Source: Oleisolibacter albus (GTDB lineage Bacteria > Pseudomonadota > Alphaproteobacteria > Azospirillales > Azospirillaceae). Taken from it: a stretch of DNA of 64,000 nt. The notes under the pieces were generated by a model. The model did no database searches, was not told the origin of the DNA, and saw only the letters and a program-made list of their open reading frames with translations. Location of the stretch: contig NZ_QGNJ01000002.1 in the NCBI RefSeq assembly GCF_003336875.1, positions 124,001 through 188,000 of the forward strand. Direction: 5' to 3'. The position numbers and the translations under genes were made by a program. Positions 8,308-41,493 of the stretch are shown piece after piece (the first letter of the stretch is position 1; each line of letters begins with the position of its first letter).

Positions 8308-9174
8308 TCAGTGCAGGCGCGTGCGCAGCTGCTGCACCAGGGTTGCCGTCTGGTGCAGCAGCTGGGCCGGGGCACCCAGGCGCGCGCCGCGGTCCATGAA
8401 GGTCTCGAAGGCCTGGATGGCGGCCCCCAGATTGCCCAGATGCGCGTTCAGCAGCCCGGCTTCCCGCCACAGGGCCGGCTGGTCGGGGGCGAACAGCAGC
8501 ATATGCTCGATGACATCCACCGCCTTGTCGGCGCGGTCGTTGCGCAGATGGCGGAGCTTCAGATTGTTCTGCAGCCGCAGCAGGATCTCGCGGTTGGACA
8601 CCGGCGCGTAATGGTCGGGCGACAGCTCCGCCTCCAGCCCGGCGGTCTGCTTCAGCAGTTCGCGCAGCGCATGGGGTTCGCGCACGCCCAGCCGGTCGAA
8701 CGGGTCCAGGATGGCGCGGTCGCCCTCATGCTCCAGCCGCACCAGGAAATGGCCGGGGAAGCTCAACCCCACCATCTGCCAGCCCAGGGCGCGGGCGGCA
8801 TGGAGATAGAGGATGCCCAGCGCCACCGGCAGCCCCAGGCGCCGGTCGATGACCCGGACCAGACTGGCGTTCTGCAGATCCTCATAGGTGACGCTGTCGC
8901 CGCGATAGCCGTGGCGGTCGTTGATCACCGCGCGCAGCACCTGGATGCGGTCGCCCAGGGCCAGATCCTCCACCGGGCCGGGGCGGGCCAGGGACGCGGC
9001 CTCGTCCGCCGCCTGGGCGGCCAGTTCGGCCAGGTGCCGGCGATAGGGGGCCAGGTCGGTCTCCGGCAGGTCGAGCGCGGCCAGGGCCAGGGCTGTTTCG
9101 GCAAGATCAATGCGCTCATCCGGCAAAGTGCCGGTCTGGCGCAACAGCTCCAACGCATGGCGGCGCATGCTCAT
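8308..9174 (-). CDS. SirB1 family protein (transglutaminase-like plus TPR)
   Basis: A 288-residue protein of the SirB1/transglutaminase-like family. The core has the pattern LRAVINDRHGYRGDSVTYEDLQNASLVRVIDRRLGLPVALGILYLHAARALGW (about residues 87-140), then FPGHFLVRLE and a DPFDRG-like region. The C-terminal third (about 195-280) forms TPR-like helical pairs. Members lie near protein release and peptidoglycan genes in many bacteria, but their reaction is not established. The usual catalytic cysteine of transglutaminases is not evident here. Confidence 0.88.
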   Translation of the reverse strand: MSMRRHALELLRQTGTLPDERIDLAETALALAALDLPETDLAPYRRHLAELAAQAADEAASLARPGPVEDLALGDRIQVLRAVINDRHGYRGDSVTYEDLQNASLVRVIDRRLGLPVALGILYLHAARALGWQMVGLSFPGHFLVRLEHEGDRAILDPFDRLGVREPHALRELLKQTAGLEAELSPDHYAPVSNREILLRLQNNLKLRHLRNDRADKAVDVIEHMLLFAPDQPALWREAGLLNAHLGNLGAAIQAFETFMDRGARLGAPAQLLHQTATLVQQLRTRLH

Positions 9175-9462
9175 TCAGGCGGCTCCCGGCTGGGACGCGG
9201 GCGGCTTGGGCGGTGCTGTCCTAACGCAGCCGATCGAGTCTTGTCGAGCGAAACACGTCACATCCGCGCGGTGGTGATCCCCTTCCCAGCCGAAAGGATA
9301 GGTCGGCCCCGCACATCGGTTTGGGGCGCCGCGCCGCGGGCCATGGCATGGCATTCCCATGCATGCTGTTGCGTTCATGCCCATGGTTCCCGTTGCCCGC
9401 ATCGCCGTCCTTCCCGTAAGTTCATGGACAGGCCGATATAAGCACAAGAAAGGGGTCCACCC

Positions 9463-10122
9463 TTGACGGTTGAGGATATGAGGAGGGACAAGCCCGGTTC
9501 CGTGTCCCGGGTGCGTCAGACCAAGAAGAGTATCGCCACCCACCAGCGCATCATCGATGCGGCGATCCGCTGTTTCCTGGAGATCGGCTACCACCGCACC
9601 ACCACGTCGGAAATCGCCAAGCGGGCCAATGTCACCCGCGGCGCCGTGCAGTATTATTTCCCGACGACGCCGGAGGTGCTGCGGGCCACCGTGGCCCATA
9701 TCCAGAACAGCATCCTGACCGAATTCGGCCAGGTCATGCGCGATCTGCCCGACGGGGCCGACCGGCTGGATGCCGCCGTGGAGAAAAGCTGGGAACTGGC
9801 CAACAGTCCGCTCTGGACGGTATGGACGGAGCTGCTGGCCGCTGCCCGCACCGACGAGGAACTGCGCGCCATCGTCTATCCCGCCGCCGAGCAGTTCGAG
9901 GTCGACGGCACCACCGTCACGCGGGAGGCGCTGCCCGATCTGGCGGCCCGTGTCGATGCCGACCGCTTCATGTTCGGCCGCTATCTCAGCTGGCAGATGG
10001 TCCTGGGCGTGGCCCGCTGCCATCTGGGGCCGGATGCGCCGGCGGTGAAGCGGCGGCTGATCGACCAGTTGAAGGTCCATATGCACGAATTCTGGGAGAT
10101 GCAGCGCAGCCACAAGGGCTGA
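9463..10122 (+). CDS. TetR/AcrR family transcriptional regulator
   Basis: A 219-residue TetR-type repressor. The DNA-binding head (about residues 21-70) shows the family pattern IIDAAIRCFLEIGYHRTTTSEIAKRANVTRGAVQYYF, followed by a helical ligand-binding body with the segment SWQMVLGVARCHLG. The listed start is a TTG with an AAGGGG ribosome site 9-12 bases upstream; an ATG at 9478 with TTGAGG just upstream is the alternative and would drop five residues. No target gene is obvious: the nearest downstream gene is 282 bases away and the upstream neighbour faces away. Confidence 0.93.
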   Translation: MTVEDMRRDKPGSVSRVRQTKKSIATHQRIIDAAIRCFLEIGYHRTTTSEIAKRANVTRGAVQYYFPTTPEVLRATVAHIQNSILTEFGQVMRDLPDGADRLDAAVEKSWELANSPLWTVWTELLAAARTDEELRAIVYPAAEQFEVDGTTVTREALPDLAARVDADRFMFGRYLSWQMVLGVARCHLGPDAPAVKRRLIDQLKVHMHEFWEMQRSHKG

Positions 10123-10255
10123 ACCGTCCGAAAGGTGGGGCGTCGCGCAGAACGGGCATTTACAAGCGCCCCCGCCCGGCGCTACGGTCATTCACCCATT
10201 CCGGGAGCATGACGCGTGGCACGGACCTGCTTTTCCTTCGTGTCGTTTTATTGGT

Positions 10256-10332
10256 GGACCACCGACCAGGCGGCCCACCGTTCGCGCATGCGCTAAGTCG
10301 AACCCGGGGCCGCCGACGGAAGTCGGTGGTCC
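10256..10332. other. Long nested stem-loop (candidate structured RNA)
   Basis: Three nested inverted repeats share one centre: an 11-bp perfect outer stem (10256-10266 with 10322-10332), an 8-bp middle stem (10269-10276 with 10307-10314) and a 5-bp inner stem (10280-10284 with 10299-10303). The single-stranded parts between are 2-7 bases and the apex about 14 bases. It lies between the TetR gene and the small TrpRS-tail-like gene, about 70 bases before the latter's start, so on the plus strand it would be in a 5' leader. No T-tract follows, so it is not an obvious terminator. Confidence 0.7.
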
Positions 10333-10404
10333 GGATGCGAACTTCGCCCCCTGGCCCGACCGATTTCCGCCCACGGCTCCTGAGCCCAAGGGATTGAGAT
10401 CGCC

Positions 10405-10803
10405 ATGGACCAGCACCATACCAGCAGCACCAGCCGCGACAGCCGTCACCTCGGCCCCCTTGCCGTGGCGGCGGACCCCGCCCGCAATGCTCCGCAGGCC
10501 GATGCCCTGGCGGCGGAGATCGCCGCCCAGGTGGCGCACCTTCCCATTGATGACCGGCTGCCGGGAGAGCCCAAGGACCCCGACGCCAGCCCCCTGTTCC
10601 GCCTCTATGCCGCCTTCGCGTCGCCGACCAAGGCGGAAACCATGCGGCTGCGCTTCCATGGCGGCATCAGCTGGGCCGACGCCAGGACCGACCTGACCAG
10701 TCTGCTGCTGCGGCTCCTGGCCGCCGATCCCGGCGCCCGCGACCGCGTGCGCACGGAACTCCGGGCCGCCGCGGGTCCGGCCCGGCTGGTGCCGGTCGGT
10801 TGA
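10405..10803 (+). CDS. Small protein resembling the C-terminal helices of tryptophanyl-tRNA synthetase
   Basis: A 132-residue protein. Residues about 60-115 (SPLFRLYAAFASPTKAETM then GGISWADARTDLTSLLLRLL) resemble the TrpRS tail pattern in which a helix like LFRAFASP..MR is followed by GG(I/L)GWGEAKQAL. No synthetase catalytic core (HIGH or KMSKS) is present, so this would be a stand-alone piece. The first 45 residues are low-complexity. The match is from memory, not a search, so function stays unknown. It lies just after the nested stem-loop. Confidence 0.62.
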   Translation: MDQHHTSSTSRDSRHLGPLAVAADPARNAPQADALAAEIAAQVAHLPIDDRLPGEPKDPDASPLFRLYAAFASPTKAETMRLRFHGGISWADARTDLTSLLLRLLAADPGARDRVRTELRAAAGPARLVPVG

Positions 10804-10843
10804 GGGGGACACGGCACACGGAGGGGAGACGTGCCGGCGGTCG

Positions 10844-11359
10844 TCACAGGCCGGTCGGCACCAGCAGCCGGTCGCCCGGCCGGCAGATGGCCAGCAGCCG
10901 CAGCAGGTCGGGCCGGTCGAGCGCGACGCAGCCAGCCGTGCCCTCATAGCCTGGCCGGGCCAGATGCAGGAACACGGCGCTGCCCAGCCCCGGCACCGGC
11001 GGGTCGTCATTGTGGCCCAGCACCACGACCAGATCGTAGACATGGTCGTCGCGCCACATCACCTCGTGGCTGGCGGGGAAGGGCCGCTTGACCGGGCGGT
11101 TGTAGGCGGGATGGGCCGGGTCGTCGCACCAGCCGTCGTCCGCGGCGATGGGCGCCGCCGGCAGGCCGGTTTCCGGCGGGGCCAGCCGGTCCGGCCGGTA
11201 CAGCACCCGGCGCAGGGGAAAGGCACCCACGGGCGTGGCCCCGTCCCCCTCGCGCTTGTCGGCGGCGATGCCGGCGCGGCCGATGGCACAGGGCGCGGCA
11301 CCGCCGGGCCAGACCAGGGTCCAGCCGCCATGCGGGCCGCGGGTGACGGTCAGCTCCAT
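10844..11359 (-). CDS. L,D-transpeptidase family protein (YkuD fold)
   Basis: A 171-residue single YkuD domain. The active-site segment is HLARPGYEGTAGCVAL, with His132 and the nucleophile Cys144; the spacing fits the class where T-x-G-C-V-A-L replaces S-x-G-C. Such enzymes cross-link peptidoglycan or attach proteins using a cysteine thiol. No signal peptide is visible from the ATG at 11359, unusual for a periplasmic enzyme, so either an upstream start is missed or it is exported another way. It lies 17 bases after the LpoA-like gene in the same direction, suggesting joint expression of two wall-related genes. Confidence 0.9.
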   Translation of the reverse strand: MELTVTRGPHGGWTLVWPGGAAPCAIGRAGIAADKREGDGATPVGAFPLRRVLYRPDRLAPPETGLPAAPIAADDGWCDDPAHPAYNRPVKRPFPASHEVMWRDDHVYDLVVVLGHNDDPPVPGLGSAVFLHLARPGYEGTAGCVALDRPDLLRLLAICRPGDRLLVPTGL

Positions 11360-11376
11360 GTGCGCAGCGTCCGGGG

Positions 11377-12615
11377 TCAGAAGGCCTGGGGCTGGAAGGT
11401 GGTGGGGGCCTGATCGACCACGCTGGTGCCGGTGCGGGTCACCTCCAGCACCGACAGACCGCGCTCCGGCAGGCCGCTGGGCAGCAGGCGGAAGATGCCG
11501 TCGATGCCGCTGAAGCCGTTGGGGTTGGTCAGGGCCGCCGGAGTGAAGGGCTGGGGGCCGCCCTGCCGGGCCAGCACGGCCGCCAGGGCGGCGGCGTCAT
11601 AGGCCAGGGTGGCCAGCCGGTGCGGCTTGTAGCCGTACAGCTCCTGGAAGCGGCCCTCGAAGGGCTGGCGCGCCTCCGGTGCCGGGGCGGCGAACCAGCC
11701 GCCGACCAGGGCCGGTTCACGTCCCAGGCCCTGTTCGTCCCACAGGCCGGTGCCCAGCAGCCGCACCGGACCCGGATCCAGGTCGAAGAAGGGGAACAGC
11801 GAGGCCAGGGCCCGCAGCTGCTGCCCGCCCTCGGCGATCATCACGGCCTGGAAGGGTGGCTCCGCCGCCTCCTTGCCGCCATGGGCGGCGGCCTTGCGCT
11901 GCTCGAAGTCGGACAGGCGCTTGACCACGGCGGTGGAGTCGCCGCCGGGCGTGTAGCGCTCGATCCTGGTGATCTGACCGCCCGCCTGCTGCACGGCGCC
12001 GGTCATGCTCTCGATCACGGCCTGGCCATAGGGGGTGGCCGGAGCCAGGATGCCGAAGCGCGTCAGCCCCTGGGCGGCGGCGTAGGCCACGACCCGTTGC
12101 ACCTGGTCCTGCGGCTGGAAGCCCAGGGTCCACAATCCGCCGCCGGCCACGGCCCAATCGCTGGAGAAACTCAGGACCGGCACGCCGGCCGCCGCGGCCA
12201 CCGGCTTGATGCCGGCTGCTTCGGGGCTGAACAGCGGGCCCAGGATCAGCTGGGCGCCGTCATTGATGGCCGCCTGCGCCGCCGCGGCCGCATCCTGGGC
12301 ACTGCCCTTGGTATCGCGCGGCATCAGCAGGAACTTGTCATCCGCCAGCTCGAACACGGCCAGCTGGGCCGCGTCCAGCATGCTCTGGCCGACCTGCTGG
12401 CCGCGGCCGCTCAGGGGCAGCAGCAGGGCCACGCGGATCCTGCCGTCCTGGGGCTTGGTGATGGCGGGCGGCGGGGCCACCGGCTGCGGCGCCGCTTCGA
12501 CGACGGGTTGCGGCGGGGGCGGTGGGGCCTGTACGGTCGGGGAACTGCTGGCGCAGGCGGCAAGGCCCAGTGTCAGTGCCAGGGCGGCGACCGCCCGTCC
12601 GAATTTCGCCAGCAT
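11377..12615 (-). CDS. LpoA-like penicillin-binding protein activator lipoprotein
   Basis: A 412-residue lipoprotein: basic start, hydrophobic leader ending LGLAAC (Cys21), a Pro-rich stretch (residues 26-52), then a periplasmic binding-protein fold (IRVALLLPLSGRGQQVGQSMLDAAQLAVFE from about 59). In Gram-negatives this family sits in the outer membrane and activates class A penicillin-binding proteins. The open frame extends much further upstream, but GGAGAAGGGA precedes the ATG at 12615 and the leader begins there, so that start is chosen. It is divergent from rsmI, a common proteobacterial arrangement, with only 28 bases between them. Confidence 0.9.
   Translation of the reverse strand: MLAKFGRAVAALALTLGLAACASSSPTVQAPPPPPQPVVEAAPQPVAPPPAITKPQDGRIRVALLLPLSGRGQQVGQSMLDAAQLAVFELADDKFLLMPRDTKGSAQDAAAAAQAAINDGAQLILGPLFSPEAAGIKPVAAAAGVPVLSFSSDWAVAGGGLWTLGFQPQDQVQRVVAYAAAQGLTRFGILAPATPYGQAVIESMTGAVQQAGGQITRIERYTPGGDSTAVVKRLSDFEQRKAAAHGGKEAAEPPFQAVMIAEGGQQLRALASLFPFFDLDPGPVRLLGTGLWDEQGLGREPALVGGWFAAPAPEARQPFEGRFQELYGYKPHRLATLAYDAAALAAVLARQGGPQPFTPAALTNPNGFSGIDGIFRLLPSGLPERGLSVLEVTRTGTSVVDQAPTTFQPQAF

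Positions 12616-41417: not shown

Positions 41418-41493
<76 letters not shown>

Follow-up and report, generated by a model that had tools for sequence, protein, structure and literature searches.

A conserved, probably cis-regulatory leader with Trp codons upstream of a TrpRS-tail-like gene in Oleisolibacter albus

The locus and its neighbors

The window, by which we mean the whole 64,000-nt stretch of Oleisolibacter albus DNA that was analyzed, carries a TetR gene (TetR_N, E = 2.5e-14) ending 97 bases before position 10220, then a short leader ORF overlapped by the 5′ arms of a long nested hairpin, then a small gene with similarity to the C-terminal domain of TrpRS, and downstream of that small gene a YkuD protein as its neighbor. 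Coordinates are collected in Table 1. The hairpin and the ATG at 10405 are separated by 72 bases, close to the spacing of about 70 bases given in the first-pass annotation. The three genomes referred to here as G022, G019, and G012 have the same arrangement of hairpin and small gene (the tail gene, for brevity), and over the four genomes the distance from hairpin end to tail start codon is 69-82 nt. In G019 the arrangement is judged from a gene split over two unjoined contigs: C158 ends in a tail-like N-terminal start, 82 nt past the hairpin, and a C-terminal part is at the edge of C2. Downstream of the tail gene on the opposite strand, an ORF that looks by eye like a pterin dehydratase is present in G022 (L024:5366-5719) and in G019 (L027:1126-1986).

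Table 1. Features around the hairpin, in window coordinates
Feature	Position	Strand	Basis or remark
Weak promoter-like pair TTTACA - 18 nt - TACGGT, candidate	10159..10188	+	consensus score 8/12
Shine-Dalgarno-like GGGAG of leader ORF	10203..10207	+	sequence
Leader ORF, 26 codons, GTG start, TAA stop	10216..10296	+	sequence; homologous ORFs in G022, G019, G012
Tandem Trp codons TGG TGG	10252..10257	+	sequence; first is GGG in G022
Segment 1	10256..10266	+	pairs with 4; together with the Trp codons also with 2
Segment 2	10269..10279	+	GGCGGCCC pairs with 3; 10275-10279 pairs with 10253-10257
Segment 3	10307..10317	+	pairs with 2 or 4
Segment 4	10322..10332	+	pairs with 1 or 3; 3:4 has 11 bp, a 4-nt loop, no U-tract
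Outer stem, 11 bp	10256-10266 with 10322-10332		perfect pairing
Middle stem, 8 bp	10269-10276 with 10307-10314		perfect pairing
Inner stem, 5 bp	10280-10284 with 10299-10303		perfect pairing
C-rich stretch from hairpin to gene, possible Rho site	10333..10404	+	suggested by C/G of 1.40
Small gene, 132 aa, stand-alone TrpRS C-terminal domain	10405..10803	+	NF008923 E = 9.7e-15, NF009207 E = 1.2e-9

The promoter-like pair has a counterpart at a similar place in G022, TTTACA - 17 nt - TAGAGA, and no comparable pair is found at that place in G019 or G012. A separate promoter scan reported no promoter at 10159-10188.

The small protein is related to the C-terminal part of TrpRS

The resemblance of the small gene to a TrpRS tail, already noted in the first-pass annotation, is confirmed by the matches to profiles NF008923 and NF009207. 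The 132-aa protein aligns to positions 217-287 of the 431-position NF008923 and to positions 222-287 of NF009207, and the tails of G012 and G022 match both profiles too (3/3 tails scanned). The 216-aa tail of G012 also matches PDB ID: 6mtk (E = 3.4e-6) as well as 5tev. Pfam gives only Rnk_N for the 132-aa protein, at E = 0.034, below the cut-off. A single-sequence structure model of the small protein is helical with a mean pLDDT of 75, and a fold search with it finds TrpRS in all six best PDB matches, which are weak (E = 0.08-1.8 and rmsd above 10, the first having E = 0.08 and rmsd 11). The tail genes of G022 (L024:5833-6423) and G012 (L025:7278-7928) encode 196 and 216 aa, and the N-terminal part of these two is largely missing from the window protein.

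To place the catalytic and anticodon-contacting positions, the tails were aligned with six TrpRS, namely that of E. coli, the genome's own, and four of a second type. The KMSKS region is absent from 4/4 tails, and the GN (HIGH-like) region is absent from the three tails that can be judged, the N-terminal part of the G019 tail being on another contig. As read from its sequence, the small protein is a catalytically dead TrpRS fragment without catalytic motifs. The residues of E. coli TrpRS that contact the anticodon are Thr225, Asp226, Ser227, and Lys274, according to PMC12135181. In the tails, Thr225 is replaced in 4/4, Asp226 is kept in 3/4, Ser227 is replaced in 4/4, and Lys274 has become Arg in 4/4. 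Two of the six TrpRS in the alignment, that of L048 and the genome's own, are also without Ser227, so its loss alone says little.

The tail profile is found in 4/82 genomes of the family. A complete TrpRS is encoded once in each of the four as well, and it is the only one in two comparison genomes that lack the hairpin element. In the class sample the profile finds 8/385, and the seven besides the genome's own are in frames of 328-371 aa, the size of a complete TrpRS. An earlier protein search matched 5/59 genomes, the fifth of which, G055, is matched through a complete TrpRS. A plasmid search returned four records that match in part, over 29-31% of the query; one carries the annotation tryptophan--tRNA ligase and three are unannotated.

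Inheritance of the leader from a TrpRS of the second type was considered and rejected, since short ORFs with WW were looked for upstream of such genes at 30 loci and few were found. Of 289 class genomes, 41 match NF009207 at E = 1e-70, and the loci of 30 were taken in. None of the 11 high-scoring loci (L047-L057) has a short WW ORF within 450 nt upstream, L056 offering only 31 nt, and among the other 19 loci (L058-L076, the unparsed L073 included in the count) there is one upstream in two, L065 and L075. The one in L065, at about 1363-1413, encodes MVKTKKTFSKFTWWRF before the TrpRS gene of an unrelated alphaproteobacterium, and that stretch is not structured (folding z = 0.25). Upstream of the genome's own trpE, no WW leader is seen by eye.

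The hairpin and the leader ORF

All three nested perfect stems reported in the first-pass annotation at 10256-10332 are present in the sequence. The common center it gave them holds for the inner two, at 10291.5, but not for the outer stem, whose center is at 10294, about 2.5 bases off. The predicted energy of the 77-nt hairpin is -46.2 kcal/mol; dinucleotide shuffles average -30.9 (sd 3.5), and 1/1000 of them is equally stable. A wider 117-nt stretch has a smaller stability excess (z = -2.37, 4/200 shuffles as stable). For the 3′ half and the 5′ half of the element, only 3/1000 and 13/1000 shuffles, respectively, are as stable.

Counted alone, perfect inverted repeats of 11 bp (gap 3-60) are not rare: the window has 10, and 30 shuffles have 4.4 on average and 8 at most. 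The nine others of the window lie in 1941-50007. An 11-bp repeat around a perfect 8-bp repeat, on the other hand, is found once in the window and in 0/30 shuffled windows, and the hairpin is taken as real. A terminator search of 10050-10900 finds no terminator-like site, and no U run follows the hairpin in any of the four sequences. The Rfam comparison proposed as a check assigns no family to the hairpin region: on 10130-10460, with E up to 10, there are four matches, all far under their gathering scores. For the whole window, the sole Rfam match at gathering score is elsewhere, a tRNA gene at 41421-41493 on the minus strand. No tandem repeats are found at 9000-12000.

The leader ORF that the 5′ hairpin arms overlap has the product VARTCFSFVSFYWWTTDQAAHRSRMR. 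The homologous leader peptides are MLRPFAFQSFYWWTTDMAAHRSRIS in G019, MTKSFPSFSFYWWTTDMAAHRSRF in G012, and VARSSFAFVSFYGWTTDLAAHRSRIS in G022. An in-frame start, a Shine-Dalgarno sequence, and the stop codon are kept in 4/4, and a GGAG is located 34-35 nt upstream of an invariant TCGTTTTAT in all of them. Tandem Trp codons are present in 3/4 leaders, while that of G022 has Gly-Trp and hence one Trp codon. The WW pair is not rare by itself, as 4/111 short ORFs of the window that are preceded by a Shine-Dalgarno sequence contain it. Because WW alone proves little, the weight of the leader ORF comes from its conservation and its position. The first-pass annotation mentions neither this ORF within the element nor the alternative pairings treated below.

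Distribution and conservation

With E = 0.01 as the limit, a DNA search of 59 genomes, the genome's own included, has matches in 7. Besides the own genome, G022, G019, and G012 hold true relatives, in which 89-116 bases align at 84-86% identity. The remaining three matches, short and weak (E = 0.003-0.008, 22-30 bases; G007, G041, and G023), were dropped, their surroundings when read by eye having no stem. The element thus counted is in 4/82 family genomes and 4/13 genera, and in the genus of the window it is in 1/11 genomes, the genome's own. A covariance model of the element gives 4/82 in the order-level search (82 genomes, as for the family), then 1/385 in the class sample and 1/398 in the phylum sample, each of the latter matches being the own genome; these searches ran with stricter filters by which weak matches may be lost. 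An exact-pattern scan of GTDB contigs gives one locus, on MAG contig JAJUIU010000097.1.

The four genomes with the element are exactly the four of 82 that carry the tail gene, a perfect co-occurrence counted without regard to kinship among the four, and the structured 5′ leader that the first-pass annotation had held plausible is well supported. We conclude that the small gene has a real and conserved leader that is probably cis-regulatory. Its core of 90 nt has 91% mean column identity across four genera, the flanks are not conserved, and within the core alignment length differences occur only 3′ of the leader stop codon. Just 5′ of the hairpin, TCGTTTTAT (window 10243-10251) is invariant in 4/4, synonymous sites included, though it is unpaired in the structures considered.

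Alternative pairings

The four segments of Table 1 permit the mutually exclusive pairings 1:2, 3:4, 2:3, and 1:4, with the Trp codons in strand 1. As far as the letters can tell, this four-segment layout is the anatomy of ribosome-mediated attenuation. The predicted energies are about -15 kcal/mol for 1:2, about -21 for 3:4, and -25 to -30 for 2:3, with 3:4 reaching -24 to -27 when its basal extension is added. For the nested core the energy is -45 to -49 kcal/mol, and in 4/4 the lowest energy of all belongs to the full nested hairpin, at -45 to -52. RNAalifold on the four sequences prefers the two local hairpins 1:2 and 3:4 over the nested form. Counted over alignment cells, pairing is retained in 99.0% for the nested form and in 100% for 1:2 plus 3:4.

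In the nested structure, 23/24 pairs are invariant among the four sequences, and with stems so nearly invariant, covariation can hardly be judged, nor the compensatory-change criterion of the first-pass annotation applied. The RNAalifold run has 4 pairs with changes on both sides. Three of them are in the poorly conserved 5′ part of the leader ORF or pair that part with a loop, and one (C-G to A-U, broken in G019) lengthens the base of 3:4. The core alignment is without any pair changed on both sides; it does have a GU to AU change within 3:4, which is compatible with pairing.

How a ribosome might choose among these pairings was modeled by folding at equilibrium with masked bases, the mask sizes being an assumption. 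With the RNA ending at segment 4, a mask on the first Trp codon gives 2:3 in 4/4, one on the second Trp codon gives 2:3 in 3/4 with the window sequence going to 3:4, and one placed over the stop codon leaves 1:4 nested around 2:3 in 4/4. With six more 3′ bases, masking either Trp codon gives the extended 3:4 in 4/4; a stop-codon mask leads to the nested form in 4/4, or to 3:4 in 4/4 once it is made 5 nt longer. The predicted outcome varies with the 3′ end and the mask chosen. Because equilibrium folding does not give the classical outcome consistently, a classical switch would require kinetic folding, with 2:3 forming before segment 4 is made. The opposite polarity of the switch is possible by this modeling.

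A switch sensed by the ribosome

We hold, at barely better than even confidence, that the element is a Trp-codon leader switch sensed by the ribosome, attenuator-like, in front of a TrpRS fragment gene. The course that we infer, from transcription and stalling through kinetic folding and polarity to the off mechanism and the role of the protein, would be as follows. A ribosome translating the leader ORF of 26 codons would, if little charged tRNA-Trp is at hand, pause at the Trp codons and cover segment 1. Segment 2, by then transcribed, would pair with 3 ahead of the synthesis of segment 4, and 3:4 could not form. With ample charged tRNA-Trp, the ribosome would instead move on to the stop codon, which lies between segments 2 and 3, and there block 2:3; 3:4 would then form, and expression would be lowered. 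That the stalled state is the one that is on is taken by analogy. Since no U-tract follows 3:4, the off state may act through Rho-dependent termination in the C-rich stretch or through an effect at translation. The C/G ratio of the stretch between hairpin and gene is 1.40 in the window and 1.42-2.11 in the relatives, where the window median is 1.00, and it exceeds 1.5 in two of the four stretches. Of the window's 75-nt stretches, 6.5% have a ratio of 1.5 or more. These values are no more than suggestive of a Rho site. Overall, the element probably works like a classical trp attenuator, and the missing U-tract is why it is not filed as one.

The product, derived from TrpRS and without catalytic motifs, may plausibly have tRNA-Trp or TrpRS as its target under Trp shortage. 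The fuller proposal, in which a Trp-starvation switch without a terminator makes a dead TrpRS fragment acting in trans on tRNA-Trp or the housekeeping TrpRS, is tentative, and we would not count on it as a whole. If it is true, it is a small regulatory circuit made from pieces of the very system that is sensed. The charging of tRNA-Trp would then be the physiological signal for an orphan inactive synthetase fragment, and with such a signal the function of the protein would become directly testable. Alphaproteobacteria would also have in it a leader switch that combines strong alternative hairpins with the lack of a U-tract.

The leader might instead be structured for reasons other than a sensing peptide, the hairpin being bound by the TrpRS-like protein, by another protein, or by RNase III, with regulation or processing of the mRNA as the result, or being released as a small RNA. 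The stability of the full nested hairpin in all four sequences is in its favor, as are the loss of one Trp codon in G022, the kinship of the small protein to a tRNA-binding domain, and the invariance of the unpaired TCGTTTTAT. A simple hairpin would have no need of the 1:2 and 3:4 pairings, yet these are kept too, and so are the reading frame, Shine-Dalgarno sequence, and stop in 4/4; we regard this reading as unlikely. Less likely again is arrest by the nascent peptide, with SFYxWTTDxAAHRSR stalling the ribosome, in the manner of TnaC, when it meets a ligand, for instance a drug or free Trp. The peptide is nearly identical in four genomes, and its W-x3-D spacing presumably resembles that of TnaC. 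But the conservation of the peptide is largely imposed by the overlapping pairings, and the first W is G in G022, which breaks the spacing.

A DNA element, either an operator of the neighboring TetR regulator or a mobile palindrome, is very improbable: there is a TetR gene upstream in the window and by eye a TetR-like ORF beside the element in G022, but the upstream ORF is by eye nadC-like in G012 and another, not TetR-like, ORF in G019, so that the element staying with the tail gene despite differing upstream ORFs argues against a TetR operator, and a repeat or mobile palindrome was rejected because the element is single-copy in its own genome (one match at E = 1.6e-52, the next best at E = 0.24).

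Comparison with known systems

The ribosome-sensed Trp-codon switch that we prefer has several neighbors among described systems. Attenuators that work through leader peptides have been described upstream of genes for amino-acid biosynthesis and of some whole synthetase genes. For the Streptomyces case, Vecchione and Sello (2010) is reportedly an experimental paper. Among the literature matches listed, with subscription papers mostly outside the scope, there is no description of a leader before a TrpRS fragment.

PMC1262725 gives predicted Trp-codon attenuators before trpS/trpS2 in Streptomyces. Compared by description, those of trpS2 share with the present element a Trp-codon leader peptide, alternative hairpins, and a TrpRS-type gene downstream; they are described as classical attenuators with terminators, whereas here there is no U-tract and only a fragment of TrpRS. 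The same source describes leader peptides of Mycobacterium cys operons without a terminator, for which its authors suggest Rho as in tna. The missing intrinsic terminator is the likeness to the present case, and the differences are that the mycobacterial leaders have Cys codons and no conserved hairpins, against strong hairpins here.

On the protein side, the comparison is with the C-terminal helical (anticodon) domain of E. coli TrpRS as presented in PMC12135181. The small protein has sequence similarity to that domain and differs in standing alone, in being without catalytic motifs, and in having Thr225 and Ser227 replaced. On the leader side, there is also the Sinorhizobium meliloti trpL attenuator, which controls trpE(G) (PMC7298713). 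That attenuator controls biosynthesis, ends in a terminator, and has a different peptide, but it resembles the element described here in coming from an alphaproteobacterium, in having a leader ORF with adjacent Trp codons, and in forming structures that exclude one another.
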